DNA from: an uncultured Bdellovibrionales bacterium
Lineage (GTDB): Bacteria; Bdellovibrionota; Bdellovibrionia; Bdellovibrionales; UBA1609
NCBI GenBank assembly: GCA_937936325.1
Contig: CALGWV010000018.1
Span: 1 to 45,883, forward strand
DNA length: 45,883 bases
Reading direction: 5' to 3'
The first letter of the stretch is position 1. Each line of letters opens with the position of its first letter. A program made the position numbers and the translations under genes. Below, piece after piece: positions 7,261 to 39,911 of the stretch. The notes beneath the pieces were generated by a model. The model did not search any database, was not told where the DNA came from, and saw only the letters and a list, made by a program, of their open reading frames with translations.

Positions 7261-7415
7261 TTTGAGTTTAGCTTTCGAGAAGAGCTCGAATTACAAGTTT
7301 GAATTGAGTGTGCAAAGTGTATTGCCAGTACATTTACTCATGCTGTGATAGGGGAGACGACTTGCGGCCACGAACGTGCTTCTAATTCGAGTGCTTCACG
7401 AAAGCTAAACTCAAC
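7261..7415. repeat. Family A structured inverted-repeat element, copy A0
   Basis: Left arm 7261-7297 TTTGAGTTTAGCTTTCGAGAAGAGCTCGAATTACAAG pairs with right arm 7379-7415 (32/37 by eye); core contains GGGAGACGACTTGCGGCCACGAACGTGCTTC shared with A1 and A2. Confidence 0.8.
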
Positions 7416-17120: not shown

Positions 17121-17330
17121 TTATTTTTTAATATAAGAGGTAACTTTGAAAAATTTAGTAAATAAGCCTTTAAACTCTATATCAGAAAACTTCTCTTTCT
17201 GTCTCTTGAAGTAGGTAAGGTTGAGTTTACGGCCTTCAAGTCTTTGTTCATTCAAAGTTCCAACCTCAAAGCTATACATAGAAATACGATGAAAAATGTC
17301 AGCCCCGGAGCGAGCTTCAAAATTTTTAAT
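17121..17330 (-). pseudogene. C-terminal remnant of a paralog of the 17517..18224 gene
   Basis: Minus-strand translation VSIKNFEARSGADIFHRISMYSFEVGTLNEQRLEGRKLNLTYFKRQKEKFSDIEFKGLFTKFFKVTSYIKK* aligns with ...GSTNIFRLPTTLKKNYSVSKYVFEVGSLSENMLNGHKLNLECYKKGPYPFTKNELQTLIRNFFEVSF*. The N-terminal part is missing at the edge of a family B element. Confidence 0.72.
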
Positions 17331-17332
17331 AG

Positions 17333-17516
17333 AGACTGTGGAAGATTTATTTGTCCAAACGAGAAAAGCAGCTCACGAGAAAGTAGATTGCCCACTGAGA
17401 AAATTAAATGAAGGCTTAGTTGTGCTCAGATCAGATTTTAATTTTGTCAGTGGGCAATCTAGTTTTGACTTGAAATGTTTTTTGTAGTGGAGAAACGAAT
17501 CTTCCACAGCCCCTAG
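17333..17516. repeat. Family B nested inverted-repeat (MITE-like) element, copy B1
   Basis: Ends CTGTGGAAGATTTATTTGTCC / GGAGAAACGAATCTTCCACAG; internal arms 17385-17408 AGATTGCCCACTGAGAAAATTAAA and 17437-17460 complementary 23/24. Homologous to 19622-19786. Confidence 0.82.
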
Positions 17517-18206
17517 TTAAAAAGAAACTTCAAAAAAATTTCTGATCAGAGTTTGGAGCTCATTTTTAGTAAATGGGTAAGGACCTTTTTTGTAACATTC
17601 TAGATTTAACTTATGTCCATTTAGCATATTTTCTGAAAGAGAGCCAACTTCAAAAACATATTTACTGACGCTATAATTTTTCTTTAAGGTAGTTGGGAGT
17701 CTGAAAATATTTGTACTGCCTAGATGGTGCTCAGTGCTAAATGAAGTCGCTTCTGGAATAACATAAGGAGTTTGCTCTAAGTTTTTATTTTCAACTAGAA
17801 TTCGAACTTGGCAATAGGGTTTCATTTTTCTAAAAAAACAGGGTGAGAAGATTTTACTTTGAGAACATCCAAACTCGGCAGCAAGTTGAACCTGGCTTAA
17901 AATATTTTCATTATAAAATAAGTTTCTAGCATCAGAATTTGAAAAGTAAGTACTAGGTTTTTGGCCTGTAAGTTCCAAACTATAAGTTTGATCTAAGGTC
18001 CAAGGGGTAATGTTTGAGAAAACAAAAACTTTATTTTTGTCAAAAAGCTTGTAGTAAGTTCTTGTGGGTTCATAAGTGGAGTTTATGAGTTCAGAAACAG
18101 AAGGAAGAAAATCTGTCCAAGTGAGCTCAGCTTTAGAGGCGGTGGTAAACTTTAGCAATAAGAAAAAGCAGAAAAAACTCTGAATAGTAATGGCTTTAAT
18201 ACTCAC
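17517..18206 (-). CDS. Secreted protein of unknown function
   Basis: ORF 17517..18224 minus, overlapping the aldolase 3' end; GTG at 18206 gives VSIKAITIQSFFCFFLLLKFTTASKA signal peptide. A homologous C-terminal remnant lies at 17121-17330. Confidence 0.65.
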   Translation of the reverse strand: MSIKAITIQSFFCFFLLLKFTTASKAELTWTDFLPSVSELINSTYEPTRTYYKLFDKNKVFVFSNITPWTLDQTYSLELTGQKPSTYFSNSDARNLFYNENILSQVQLAAEFGCSQSKIFSPCFFRKMKPYCQVRILVENKNLEQTPYVIPEATSFSTEHHLGSTNIFRLPTTLKKNYSVSKYVFEVGSLSENMLNGHKLNLECYKKGPYPFTKNELQTLIRNFFEVSF

Positions 18207-19430: not shown

Positions 19431-19621
19431 ACGGCCCGTAGTAGATGTTAGACCCCTTCAGGTATAACAAATCTTATTGCTACCATAGATAGTCCTTAAG
19501 TCTAATGCTGTTAAAGCTTTTCAATTAGATTTTTCCCACATAGTTTAAATGTAAGGCTTTTAGAGGGGGCGCTTTGTAAAAAGTGTATAAAAAGCTTTTA
19601 TTTTAAAGATTCTAAATTTAA

Positions 19622-19786
19622 AGGCTTTGGAAGATTCGTTTGTCCAAATGAGAAATTAGATTGCGCACAGACAAAGTAAATTGAAGGCTGAGTTGTGACT
19701 CGGTCGAGTTTAATTTTGTCAGTGCCCACTTTGGTTTCGACTTGAGATGTTGTTTCTAGTGGACAAACGAATCTTCCACAGCCTCT
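19622..19786. repeat. Family B nested inverted-repeat (MITE-like) element, copy B2
   Basis: AGGCTTTGGAAGATTCGTTTGTCCAA (left) vs TGGACAAACGAATCTTCCACAGCCT (right); central part homologous and in the same orientation as B1 (GAAGGCT.AGTTGTG, TTTAATTTTGTCAGTG). Confidence 0.82.
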
Positions 19787-19830
19787 AAGGTTTTAGAACG
19801 TAGAACAACAAGTAAATAGGAGGATAAGGT

Positions 19831-21555
19831 ATGAGATATTTTCTAGTTTTTAGTTTGGCTTTGTTATTTAGCCCATGGGTTTCTCAAGCTACTGTCACTT
19901 GTGACTTGAATGCACAGGACAGTTGTGAATTCCAGGTCAATTTAAATCCAGTCGGGACGGTTTTTGTACATGGTATAAATATCATCGGAGCTGCTGGAGA
20001 AATACAGGTTAGATCAAATACAGGTTTGCCTGTCATGATGAGTGAAGTGCATTATCTCACATCGCAATTTGATCCAAATAATCAGCAACATACATATAAC
20101 ATGACATCTGCAACTCAATCTTCGAGTCAGGTTCCAACGTGGGCAAGGGCTGCTCAGCAGTACTTTAGTGGGCAGTATGAAAACTCTTCTGTGAGTATTT
20201 TTATTCATCGAGCCTCATATGTACAAAATAGCCCTGCTTCAGATGTTTTAACTGTGACACCTCAAGCCTGGACACCTCCTGCTGAGTCGACCTCTGATTT
20301 TCAGTTTGTTCCAATGCCAAACCATACACCTGCGCAAACAAATCAAGTTTGCTCCTACAGGAGTAGCTTTGGGGTAGATCCCATTTACGTACGTCCAGGT
20401 GAGAAAGTCGACTGGCCTTTTGGTGAGCCTACTAAGACAGTGAGTCCGGAGGGTTGTGAATCTGGTTATGAAGGTACCGTGACTACCGTAAGTCAGAAGT
20501 TTTGGACTCAAGAGATGGGAGCTGACTGCAATTTAAAGCAAAATATACTTAATGAGTCAGAGAAAGTTGTTGATAAAATATATGACTGCACGCCCATTGT
20601 TAGCCCACAATCTCGAAAATCTGTCCCTGAAATTTCTCCAACTCCTCATGTTTACACTTGCCGCGTAGGTGGGACAATTTTAACTGGCGGAGGTTATGCT
20701 CAAGATTTAGCTGACCCTGTGCTAGAAAGTTTTCATGATTATTGTTCAAAGGGGTACTCTGGAGAAATTGTAGCTCTTACTCCTAAGTATAAATATTATG
20801 ATTGCAAAAATTTTGACTATGCTGAGTTAAATGAAGCTTACCCAGAAAAATATGGGCACAATCAAACCAAAATAGTGGACCGATGCACTCCGGCACCTCT
20901 TTCTTCTTGTTCTCATCCTCGGACTGGGGCAGAAGTCGTTCACGGTGAGCAGATTTTTGTTCGAGATCGTAATAGGTCTAAGCGCAAGAAAAGAAAGTGT
21001 TCCAATAGACGAAATGCTGAGGTGGTTTATGATATTTTCCATACAAAAATAGCAAAAAAATGTAACGGAAAAACAGGTTATTTTGAAGATGTTTATGTAA
21101 ACAGCAGTCTCTTAGAAACTTTTGGCAAGATTAAGCAAAAAGCTGAATGTCGTAAAAAGCACGAAAGAAGACGAGAGCGCGAAGCTCGAAGACAAGAAAA
21201 AGAGAGAGAGCAAAAAAGGCGTGAAGTTCGAAGACAAGAAAAAGAGAGAGAGCAAAAAAGGCGTGAAGTTCGAAGACAAGAAAGAGAGAGAGAGCAAAAA
21301 CGCGAAGCTCGAAGACAAGAAAAAGAGAGAGAGCAAAGGCGTAAGGCTCAAAGAGACAGGTCTCAGGTTCGAAAAAAAGAGAAGCCTAAATCCAAGGTTT
21401 CGTCTACTCCTAAAAAAACAAAAAATAAGCCAAGGAAAAGAAATGAGTCTGCAGCAGGTAAACCTCAACCGCACCCAGAGTGTATTTGGGATATAAGTAT
21501 AGAGGACTGGGATTGTGGCAGACGTCACGCCCCTACAGCAGACTCAAGCAAATAA
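19831..21555 (+). CDS. Secreted Cys-containing protein with charged (R/K/E/Q) tandem repeat, unknown function
   Basis: SD AGGAGGATAAGGT before ATG; signal peptide MRYFLVFSLALLFSPWVSQA; C-terminal repeats RRQEKEREQKRREV. Confidence 0.75.
   Translation: MRYFLVFSLALLFSPWVSQATVTCDLNAQDSCEFQVNLNPVGTVFVHGINIIGAAGEIQVRSNTGLPVMMSEVHYLTSQFDPNNQQHTYNMTSATQSSSQVPTWARAAQQYFSGQYENSSVSIFIHRASYVQNSPASDVLTVTPQAWTPPAESTSDFQFVPMPNHTPAQTNQVCSYRSSFGVDPIYVRPGEKVDWPFGEPTKTVSPEGCESGYEGTVTTVSQKFWTQEMGADCNLKQNILNESEKVVDKIYDCTPIVSPQSRKSVPEISPTPHVYTCRVGGTILTGGGYAQDLADPVLESFHDYCSKGYSGEIVALTPKYKYYDCKNFDYAELNEAYPEKYGHNQTKIVDRCTPAPLSSCSHPRTGAEVVHGEQIFVRDRNRSKRKKRKCSNRRNAEVVYDIFHTKIAKKCNGKTGYFEDVYVNSSLLETFGKIKQKAECRKKHERRREREARRQEKEREQKRREVRRQEKEREQKRREVRRQEREREQKREARRQEKEREQRRKAQRDRSQVRKKEKPKSKVSSTPKKTKNKPRKRNESAAGKPQPHPECIWDISIEDWDCGRRHAPTADSSK
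21187..21348 (+). repeat. Coding tandem repeat, 4 units (42, 42, 39, 39 nt)
   Basis: Unit CGAAGACAAGAAAAAGAGAGAGAGCAAAAAAGGCGTGAAGTT starts at 21187, 21229, 21271 and 21310. Confidence 0.9.
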
Positions 21556-35598: not shown

Positions 35599-36668
35599 AA
35601 ATCGAAAAATACATTCCTCTTTTGTTACTAGGGCTCATAGTTTGGGCCATTGGCTTGGACCTCTTTGGATATATAATTCCTTCAGTTTTATTTTATGCTA
35701 TTGGACTCACTTTTGTGTGCGGGCTTGGAGTTTTTATTTATAAAAATTCCCTGCTCAAATACACCATGAAAAGAATTGGGGAAGCCTTTTTTGTCATTTT
35801 CCTCATCATGACCGCCACCTTTTTATTGCTAAGAACTATTCCCGGGGGGCCCTTTGATGAAGAAAAAGCTCTCCCGCCAGAGATCAAAGCCAATATTGAA
35901 AAAAAATATAATTTAGATCAACCCTTGCTCACACAGTATGCCTTATACATAGGGCAGGTGGTGCGCGGGGATATGGGAGAGAGTTTTAAATATGTTGGGC
36001 GCTCTGTCACTGACATTATAAAAGAGGCCCTGCCACCATCTTTGCTTCTGGGCTTTTATGCTTTGATCTTAGCTTTTTTGATGGGGATACCTCTGGGGCT
36101 TTTTGCAGCGGCCAGGCATAACACCTGGATTGATAATTTATGTATGGGCTTTGCCGTAAGTGGGATCGCTTTGCCCAATTTTCTTGTGGCCACACTTTTA
36201 GTGTTGTTCTTTTCATTAAAGTTGCAAGTATTGCCCGCAGCACTTTGGGTGACCCCTTGGCATTACATCTTGCCGGTCATTGCACTTGGGATCCGCCCTG
36301 CGGCTTTTATTGCCCGCCTCACACGATCCAGTGTTTTGGATGTCATTCAATCTGATTATATTCGTACGGCAAAAGCCAAGGGTCTGTCTGCTCGAAAAGT
36401 TTTATGGAAGCATGTTTTAAAAAACTCACTTCTGCCAGTGCTCACTTTTTCAGGACCACTGGCTGCTGGGATTATGTCAGGTTCATTTGTTATTGAATTT
36501 ATTTTTGCTATCCCAGGATTAGGTCCTCATTTAATATCAAGTGTGTCTAACCGAGACTATCCGCTGATTTTAGGTTTAACACTTTTGTATTCTATTATGC
36601 TTATTTTTGCGAACTTAATTGTGGATTTGTTGTACACATTTTTTGATCCAAGGATAAAACTATCATGA
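35595..36668 (+). CDS. oppB: Oligopeptide ABC transporter permease OppB
   Basis: LLRTIPGGPFDEEKALPPE, Tyr-Ile-Arg-Thr-Ala-Lys-Ala-Lys-Gly loop YIRTAKAKGLSARKVLWKHVLKNSLLP; start overlaps the oppA stop (ATGA). Confidence 0.92.
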   Translation: MKIEKYIPLLLLGLIVWAIGLDLFGYIIPSVLFYAIGLTFVCGLGVFIYKNSLLKYTMKRIGEAFFVIFLIMTATFLLLRTIPGGPFDEEKALPPEIKANIEKKYNLDQPLLTQYALYIGQVVRGDMGESFKYVGRSVTDIIKEALPPSLLLGFYALILAFLMGIPLGLFAAARHNTWIDNLCMGFAVSGIALPNFLVATLLVLFFSLKLQVLPAALWVTPWHYILPVIALGIRPAAFIARLTRSSVLDVIQSDYIRTAKAKGLSARKVLWKHVLKNSLLPVLTFSGPLAAGIMSGSFVIEFIFAIPGLGPHLISSVSNRDYPLILGLTLLYSIMLIFANLIVDLLYTFFDPRIKLS

Positions 36669-37546
36669 TGAAATCAAACAGCTTATGGCAAGACTCTTGG
36701 GTAAGACTTCAAAAAAATAAGGGAGCCATGTTCTCCATGTACTTTATTATTTTAGTGAGTGTGTTAGCACTTTTTGCTGGAGTACTGAGTCCTTACCCTT
36801 TTGATGAAATCTTCGATGGGAAAGAGTTCTTGAGTCCGAATTCAAAATTTTGGTTTGGAACAGACAGCTTAGGGAGAGATCTCTTTTCAAGAACGCTATA
36901 CGGCGCACGAATGTCTATGGCCGTTGGGATAATCACAGCTTTAATATCAATGGTGATTGGCACAGTTTACGGATCTATATCGGGTTGGTTCGGAGGACGC
37001 ATAGACTCCATCATGATGCGTTTTGTGGACACACTCATAGCCATACCCTCACTCGTTCTTTTAATTTTAGTGAAAGTCTTTTTTGATTCTTTTCAGCTTT
37101 TTGAAAGCCTAGAGGCCAGAGCCTTAACAGGAATGGTCGTGGCATTAAGTATGGTGGGCTGGGTGACCTTGGCTCGAGTCGTCAGAGGCCAGGTTCTACA
37201 GGTTAAAGAGCTCACCTATGTGGAAGCAGCCCGGGCCTTAGGGTTTAAACCTGCACATATTTTAAGAAAATATATTATCCCTAATATACTAGGACCTATT
37301 ATTGTCTTACTGACTTTTCAGATCCCAAGTAATATTTTATCAGAAAGTTTTTTAAGTTTTATAGGCCTCGGCCTTCAACCTCCATATAGTAGCTGGGGAG
37401 TGCTCGCCAATGATGGTTGGAAAGCCATGCAAACTTATCCCCATCTGATATTCCCACCAGGAGTAGCTATTTTCCTAACACTCTTAGCTTTCAACCTTTT
37501 TGGTGATGGCCTCAGAGATGCCCTTGATCCTAAGATGAAGACGTAA
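36665..37546 (+). CDS. oppC: Oligopeptide ABC transporter permease OppC
   Basis: FGTDSLGRDLFSRTLYGARMSMAVG, YVEAARALGFKPAHILRKYIIPNILGPIIV, SFLSFIGLGLQPPYSSWGVL. Confidence 0.93.
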   Translation: MMKSNSLWQDSWVRLQKNKGAMFSMYFIILVSVLALFAGVLSPYPFDEIFDGKEFLSPNSKFWFGTDSLGRDLFSRTLYGARMSMAVGIITALISMVIGTVYGSISGWFGGRIDSIMMRFVDTLIAIPSLVLLILVKVFFDSFQLFESLEARALTGMVVALSMVGWVTLARVVRGQVLQVKELTYVEAARALGFKPAHILRKYIIPNILGPIIVLLTFQIPSNILSESFLSFIGLGLQPPYSSWGVLANDGWKAMQTYPHLIFPPGVAIFLTLLAFNLFGDGLRDALDPKMKT

Positions 37547-37650
37547 AAATCAAATTTGAAGCCTTTAAATATTCGTGTTTGGCTTCGAGCTAATTCCTAT
37601 ATTTAAAGATTAAACTCTAATCACTGAGAAAGTTAATTTAAGTAATGGGT

Positions 37651-37872
37651 GTTAAGCACTTTTAATTCTTGTGTCTTCTTTGTGAACTCTTGAAGTCATT
37701 TCCCACTGGATAAAAAAAGCCCGCTTTCGGCCGCAAGTCGTCTCATGGAATGTATTATGAATACATTCCACACCCCAAGGTACGCCTTGCCGCGACGCTC
37801 AAAGCTTTCTTTTCTAGTGGGAAATGACTTCAAGAGTTCACAAAGAAGACACAAGAATCAAAAATGCTTAAC
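37651..37872. repeat. Family A structured inverted-repeat element, copy A1 (core on minus strand)
   Basis: Arms 37651-37707 GTTAAGCACTTTTAATTCTTGTGTCTTCTTTGTGAACTCTTGAAGTCATTTCCCACT and 37816-37872 complementary 55/57; core, read on minus strand, GCGTCGCGGCAAGGCGTACCTTGGGGTGTGGAATGTATTCATAATACATTCCATGAGACGACTTGCGGCCGAAAGCGGGCT. Confidence 0.9.
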
Positions 37873-37892
37873 ATGCTAATAATTTTATTCTA

Positions 37893-39711: not shown

Positions 39712-39911
39712 TATTTTAAAGCTTGAGATTGATTTTGGATTTCTTAAAGATGTTGAATAAGGCGGAAGCGTTGAACGTCGCGGCAGCGCGTATCTTGGTG
39801 TGTGATATGTACACATAGCACATTTCAGGAGACGTTCTGCGGCCGAAAGTGGGCTTCCATCTTATTCAACATCTTTAAGAAATTCAAAATCAATCTTAAG
39901 CTTTAAAAATA
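39712..39911. repeat. Family A structured inverted-repeat element, copy A2 (core on plus strand)
   Basis: Left arm from 39712 TATTTTAAAGCTTGAGATTGATTTTGGATTTCTTAAAGATGTTGAATAAGGCGGAAGC; right arm to 39911 is its reverse complement with a few mismatches and one indel; core AACGTCGCGGCAGCGCGTATCTTGGTGTGTGATATGTACACATAGCACATTTCAGGAGACGTTCTGCGGCCGAAAGTGGGCTT. Confidence 0.9.

Follow-up and report, generated by a model that had tools for sequence, protein, structure and literature searches.

A dispersed hairpin family with a conserved core and variable arms in Bdellovibrionales

The A1 hairpin and other repeats of the window

The stretch of DNA analyzed here (the window) comprises 45,883 nt from an uncultured Bdellovibrionales bacterium whose genome, hereafter G000, has 2.06 Mb and is 99% complete. 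A dppC/oppC-type permease gene on the plus strand (36665..37546) ends 104 nt before a long hairpin, A1, and its transcript would run into the strand opposite the A1 core. Read 5' to 3' on this core strand (minus), A1 is composed of a 5' arm (37804..37873) that is private in the genome, a conserved core with an imperfect apical hairpin (37717..37807; 96.8 and 79.4 bits with covariance models R1 and R2, respectively, with covariation across copies), and a 3' arm (37650..37720). An inverted-repeat search matched positions 37650-37717 with 37806-37873 over 68 nt (93% complementary), and gapped alignment lengthened the arms to 70-71 nt with 66 identities. An earlier note on this DNA had reported arms matching at 55 of 57 positions and forming one of the longest stems. 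The match proved to be the outer part of these arms, and no inverted repeat of the window is longer than A1. Both mismatches of this outer stem are G.U on the minus strand, so that the predicted RNA stem is unbroken over 58 pairs. The minus-strand fold of A1 reached -138.5 kcal/mol versus -53.5 +/- 4.6 kcal/mol for 200 shuffles (z -18.7). At positions 37720-37737 (minus strand), the 3' side of the core followed by the T-run of the arm resembles an intrinsic terminator (CTTGCGGCCGAAAGCGGG CTTTTTTT), and many copies in G000 have a comparable T-run at that place.

Scanning the window for arms of at least 30 nt retrieved three hairpins (A1, A0, and A2), and none in twelve shuffled regions. A0 lies on the plus strand at 39714..39908 (arms 39714-39769 and 39853-39908, core 39766-39856; 104.2 bits), and A2 is a degenerate copy on the same strand at 7262..7414 (arms 7262-7297 and 7379-7414, core approximately 7294-7381; 59.1 bits). 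The homology of the minus-strand A1 core to these copies, which the earlier note had recognized, is clear: the A0 core is 80% identical to it over 91 nt, and both A0 and A2 were detected by the covariance models. No match above the gathering cut-off of any family was obtained when the window was searched against Rfam. Other repeats are also present. Two hairpins of a second family, B (17323-17522 and 19618-19788), have common arms (GTGGAAGATTCGTTTGTCCA) and are approximately 85% alike over 82 nt; since they share their arms, family B is an ordinary MITE-like repeat and offers a useful contrast to family A in the same genome. A tandem repeat at 21163-21337 consists of four copies of approximately 42 nt each, rich in AGAGAG and GAAGA.

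Core conservation, private arms, and distribution of the family

A nucleotide search with the A1 core found copies throughout G000, and covariance model R1, built from 19 cores, identified approximately 37 of them with E-values that are to be taken as rough. Clear arms were present in 34 of the 37 copies examined, with a median length of 51.5 nt and 92.5% identity within a copy. The imperfect hairpin of the core shows two-sided covariation, and its motif GCGTATC...GA(A/G)GACG is maintained across genomes. While the cores of G000 have a mean identity of 71% between copies, the similarity of their arms is barely above that of shuffled arms (mean score 0.5 versus -1.0). Nineteen arms queried against the whole genome matched only their own two places (E < 1e-11), the next match having an E-value of 0.03. 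The claims that arm sequence is not shared with other copies and that a conserved core with private arms departs from a conventional MITE thus hold throughout G000. The same genome-wide search gave no source for the arms, and their origin as copies of sequence elsewhere in the genome was discarded. Chimeras of amplification or assembly were likewise rejected as the origin of the private arms: a conserved core lies between the arms in every case, the arms decay and have a G.U bias specific to one strand, and such arms are found again in assemblies made independently.

With a broader covariance model (52 cores) the family was detected in 13 of the 142 genomes of the order, a patchy distribution, and no positive genome was found outside this one order among the 379 genomes of the phylum that were scanned. 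Several of the genomes are fragmented MAGs, and their gene calls are automatic. A median arm of approximately 50 nt was also observed in G062 (an uncultured Bdellovibrionales MAG), in G063, and in other carriers, and G014 has longer arms too. Matches of core patterns to Lentisphaera and to a viral contig were without arms and were taken as chance. G063 contains a further seven hairpins (L304:5778-5902, L305:13170-13276, L308:2499-2636, L311:7331-7461, L315:16507-16628, L319:2038-2159, and L321:7459-7614) with a shorter core (loops of 35-66 nt, often GCGCAG...GAGCAC) and near-perfect arms of 33-45 nt. They are of the same design as family A with different cores.

Insertion sites, host gene ends, and decay of the arms

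Mobility was assessed within one genus, to which G062, G063, G018, and G031 belong. The 12 copies examined in G062 and the 20 examined in G063 have no position in common, and the congeners G018 and G031 have no copies of the family. Two coincidences of neighboring genes between G000 and G063 were considered as orthologous insertions and discarded, as the side or orientation differs. For eight copies of G063 or G062, an orthologous element-free site was found in one to three congeneric relatives. The interval between the aligned flanks at these loci was 0-83 nt in the best-aligned relatives versus 178-259 nt with the element; in the clearest case (L120), a short gene spacer measures 15-17 nt in three relatives versus 188-198 nt in G063. 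At six of the eight loci the empty interval did not exceed the flank remnants adjoining the element by more than 5 nt; at L118 and L125 it exceeded them by 13-40 nt. Neither arm was present in the empty-site interval at any of the eight loci, which means that core and both arms arrived together. In these sister genomes they enter as one unit of approximately 165-205 bp. Target-site duplication was not detected among 56 copies (mean 2.0 versus 2.07 in mispaired flanks), a comparison in which the exact ends of the element could be off by a few nt.

Copies of the family often adjoin stop codons. For 14 of 20 copies in G063, the gene to the right is read in the opposite direction and has its stop codon at a position from 13 nt inside to 19 nt outside the arm. 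Moreover, two stop-codon sites are occupied by a different hairpin element in the sister species (L113 in G062 and L279 in G063; L133 in G063 and L214 in G062), which suggests that the positions right after stop codons are insertion hot spots. By GC skew, the core was on the lagging strand in 9/9 copies of G004 (skew taken from the surrounding 10-20 kb of regions L293-L301), 11/16 of G014, and 12/22 of G063. These counts do not agree from genome to genome on a preference for one replication strand, and the pattern of G004 was not reproduced in G063.

Arms that enter genes were best seen in G014, where many arms match at 100% over 50-83 nt. In 5 of its 14 family A copies, and in one copy of a second family, the arm extends 11-28 nt into the adjacent gene, and an inverted copy of the gene end lies on the opposite side of the core. 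Five of these six genes were examined and all end naturally inside the arm: DppC aligns with the DppC of the window (71% identity) to one residue from the end, and the MsbA, RimO, M23, and siderophore-interacting proteins reach the end of their family profile, or nearly so, within 5 residues of their own end. Relative to the core strand, the ancestral side lies 5' in some copies and 3' in others. The second hairpin family of G014 has perfect arms of 32-83 nt (L284:8740-8967, L287:1134-1325, L287:11103-11275, and L289:17036-17163), and its arm at L284 contains the last 27 nt of dppC. Other genomes, too, have arms that overlap a gene, over shorter distances (10 nt in one case in G000). At copy L113 of G062, the gene-side 10 nt are conserved in the G063 orthologue that lacks this element, and their copy across the core matches at 9 of 10 positions. 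As read from these other genomes, the outermost stem can be host DNA, namely an inverted copy of the adjoining gene end, although G014, where flank copying is best seen, has no close relative that would provide an empty site at base level. By analogy, the outer stem of A1 may be host-derived as well. Snap-back template switching appears to be the likeliest route to such inverted gene ends, template switching being a published route for making and repairing perfect stems (PMC8794818).

These observations also raise the alternative that only the core is mobile. Each insertion would then build the whole stem anew as an inverted copy of the flanking target, and the arms would be private because they are host DNA. 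The natural gene ends within G014 arms, which are almost unrelated between copies, and the unrelated arms of G000 would agree with it. On the other hand, it would not predict eight empty sites without either arm, six of them with intervals that leave no excess over the flank remnants, nor the arms of G063 and G062, which are recognizably homologous from copy to copy. In G000, arms seldom enter genes despite ending near stop codons, and their inner 10 nt are alike in composition. We therefore regard this alternative as unlikely. The proposal of the earlier note that an element duplicates its flank as an inverted copy survives for the outer arm of some copies (the gene ends of G014 and the 10 nt in G062), but not for the whole arm: at the eight loci no arm corresponds to ancestral flank and both were inserted together.

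How the arms change after insertion was analyzed from their divergence. In G063, cores diverge by 5.8% between copies, whereas arms diverge by 4.7% within a copy and 23% between copies; even copies with cores less than 3% apart have arms that are 24.6% apart. In G062, most arm pairs are identical within a copy and diverge by 25% between copies. In G000, homology between the arms of different copies does not extend beyond the purine-rich inner 10 nt. What is constrained is the ability to form a stem, not the sequence of the arms. Arm identity in G000 drops with the score of the core (rho 0.73, p 6e-7), which indicates that inserted copies lose the match between their arms over time and that no perfect match is maintained in place.

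Mismatches between the arms carry a strand signature. On the core strand, 110 transition mismatches were of the G.U type versus 51 of the A.C type, an excess limited to the inner 48 nt of the arms (95:30 versus 15:21 further out; Fisher p 2e-4). Mismatches common to several G063 copies comprised 18 G.U, 3 A.C, and 6 transversions, while those of a single copy comprised 7 G.U, 3 A.C, and 32 transversions; one mismatch column has TT in 5, TC in 6, and CC in 5 copies. Since the shared mismatches are mostly G.U on the core strand, pairing seems to be selected in single-stranded form. Our reading is that both arms are inherited and their pairing is selected as the single-stranded core strand, the outer stem being free of that constraint. 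Strand-biased deamination acting on the core strand could produce a similar G.U surplus, but it is less likely because in G063 its target would have to be the strand that serves as template for the adjacent gene. Among two-sided changes between copies, transversions are as numerous as transitions, and indels in one arm have their counterparts in the other. One arm may therefore template the other on occasion; stepwise compensation accounts for this pattern less well than templated copying does.

Two-sided changes of this kind, with a transition:transversion ratio near 1 and paired indels, would also be expected if template switching or gene conversion corrected the arms against each other in place and so kept them identical. 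The core would then be a leftover of such correction, a process documented for imperfect palindromes (PMC7202029, PMC8794818). The earlier note had offered gene-conversion-like correction as its second explanation, which fails on the joint decay of arms and core. G.U mismatches common to several copies have not been corrected, and imperfect pairs are retained in the core. We consider this explanation quite improbable.

Candidate enzymes, proposed mechanism, and comparison with known systems

No mobilizing enzyme was identified for the family. Among 47 genomes of the host's family, 28 contain Y1 transposase genes, but none was found in G000 (99% complete) or G014, and reverse transcriptase (PF00078), which a retroelement relying on its own enzyme would need, was not found in G000, G062, or G063. 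The flanks examined at Y1 and reverse transcriptase loci elsewhere in the family contained no core. Both enzymes were discarded as mobilizers, as they are missing from G000 and unlinked to the core elsewhere. An autonomous version with a gene between two cores was also searched for among close core pairs (G014, G006, G037, G000 C74, G063 C109, and the A1-A0 interval), and these enclose only host-type genes, mobility genes being judged by eye. The distribution of Y1 genes bears on another explanation, that of REPIN-like elements with an unusually long stem, which a Y1 (RAYT) transposase encoded elsewhere would mobilize in the form of ssDNA hairpins. A hairpin with internal mismatches, an extragenic position, and the absence of target duplication would suit it; without Y1 in G000 or G014, and without cores beside Y1 loci, we judge it very improbable. 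Finally, an immobile structured 3'-UTR element inherited vertically is hardly credible, since the covarying core and the positions beside stop codons that would favor it are outweighed by the empty sites, the patchy presence (13/379 genomes), and the lack of common positions between two species of one genus.

Family A is therefore best seen as a set of small non-autonomous mobile repeats whose stem is conserved as structure only. We hold it somewhat probable that A1 is a copy of such a hairpin, one that inserts near stop codons and whose stem is inherited, drifts, and gains length when the flank is copied in inverted orientation. The Bdellovibrionales element presents a conserved core of approximately 90 nt, with its imperfect apical hairpin, on a stem of approximately 50 bp. 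Mobilization would require the core strand in a folded, single-stranded form, as ssDNA or RNA; for this reason the core would be held by recognition, whereas the arms would need only to pair and could otherwise drift. At or after insertion, snap-back template switching might extend the paired end of one arm along the flank; once inserted, arms and core would decay together. The arms in G000 are so unlike one another that a common ancestral arm cannot be demonstrated, and as this genome has no relative closer than family level, we infer the origin of A1's arms from the sister genomes. A bolder version, which we advance only tentatively, is a class of bacterial mobile element with no fixed terminal sequence. 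The stem that the structured core makes for itself would be renewed and gain length with each insertion, as host DNA is copied in inverted orientation, and every copy would thereby have private, host-derived terminal repeats.

The layout of family A inverts the one usual among small mobile repeats: recognition seems to be central, and the ends need only pair. The origin and persistence of long perfect stems can thereby be put to a direct test in a bacterium whose genome offers many independent insertions, and host gene ends are seen copied in inverted form into a mobile hairpin. Furthermore, the core model now available finds elements that searches for terminal repeats would miss.

Literature searches, mainly outside subscription journals, returned no described element with a constant core and private arms. 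In MITEs the terminal repeats are retained, and a target duplication is usual. Family A resembles them in being small, non-autonomous, bounded by inverted repeats, and inserted as one unit at the eight empty sites, but its terminal repeats are private in G000 and no target duplication was seen. Integron attC sites are found after stop codons, keep their structure with a variable stem sequence, serve as substrate in the form of a folded single strand, and have conserved boxes at the base of the stem. Family A shares with them the position after stop codons, the priority of structure over stem sequence, and possibly the single-stranded substrate, yet its conserved part is at the apex and its copies are dispersed, not in cassette arrays. 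REPIN and REP sequences, associated with RAYT (TnpA-REP), are likewise short, extragenic, multicopy, non-autonomous, imperfect hairpins, possibly with a folded single strand as substrate. REP sequences are marked by a foot (GTAG/GTGG) and a stem whose 7-20 nt are conserved in sequence (PMC6006769), whereas the stem of family A has approximately 50 bp of variable sequence, no such foot appears in core alignments or boundary composition, and Y1 genes are absent from G000 and unlinked to the core elsewhere. Family A thus fails tested defining features of both MITEs and REPINs, and is stranger than a MITE. Template-switch hairpins have perfect stems made or repaired by inverted copying of an arm or flank (Monttinen and Loytynoja 2022, PMC8794818), but these are single mutation events in genes, whereas family A is a dispersed mobile family with a constant core.
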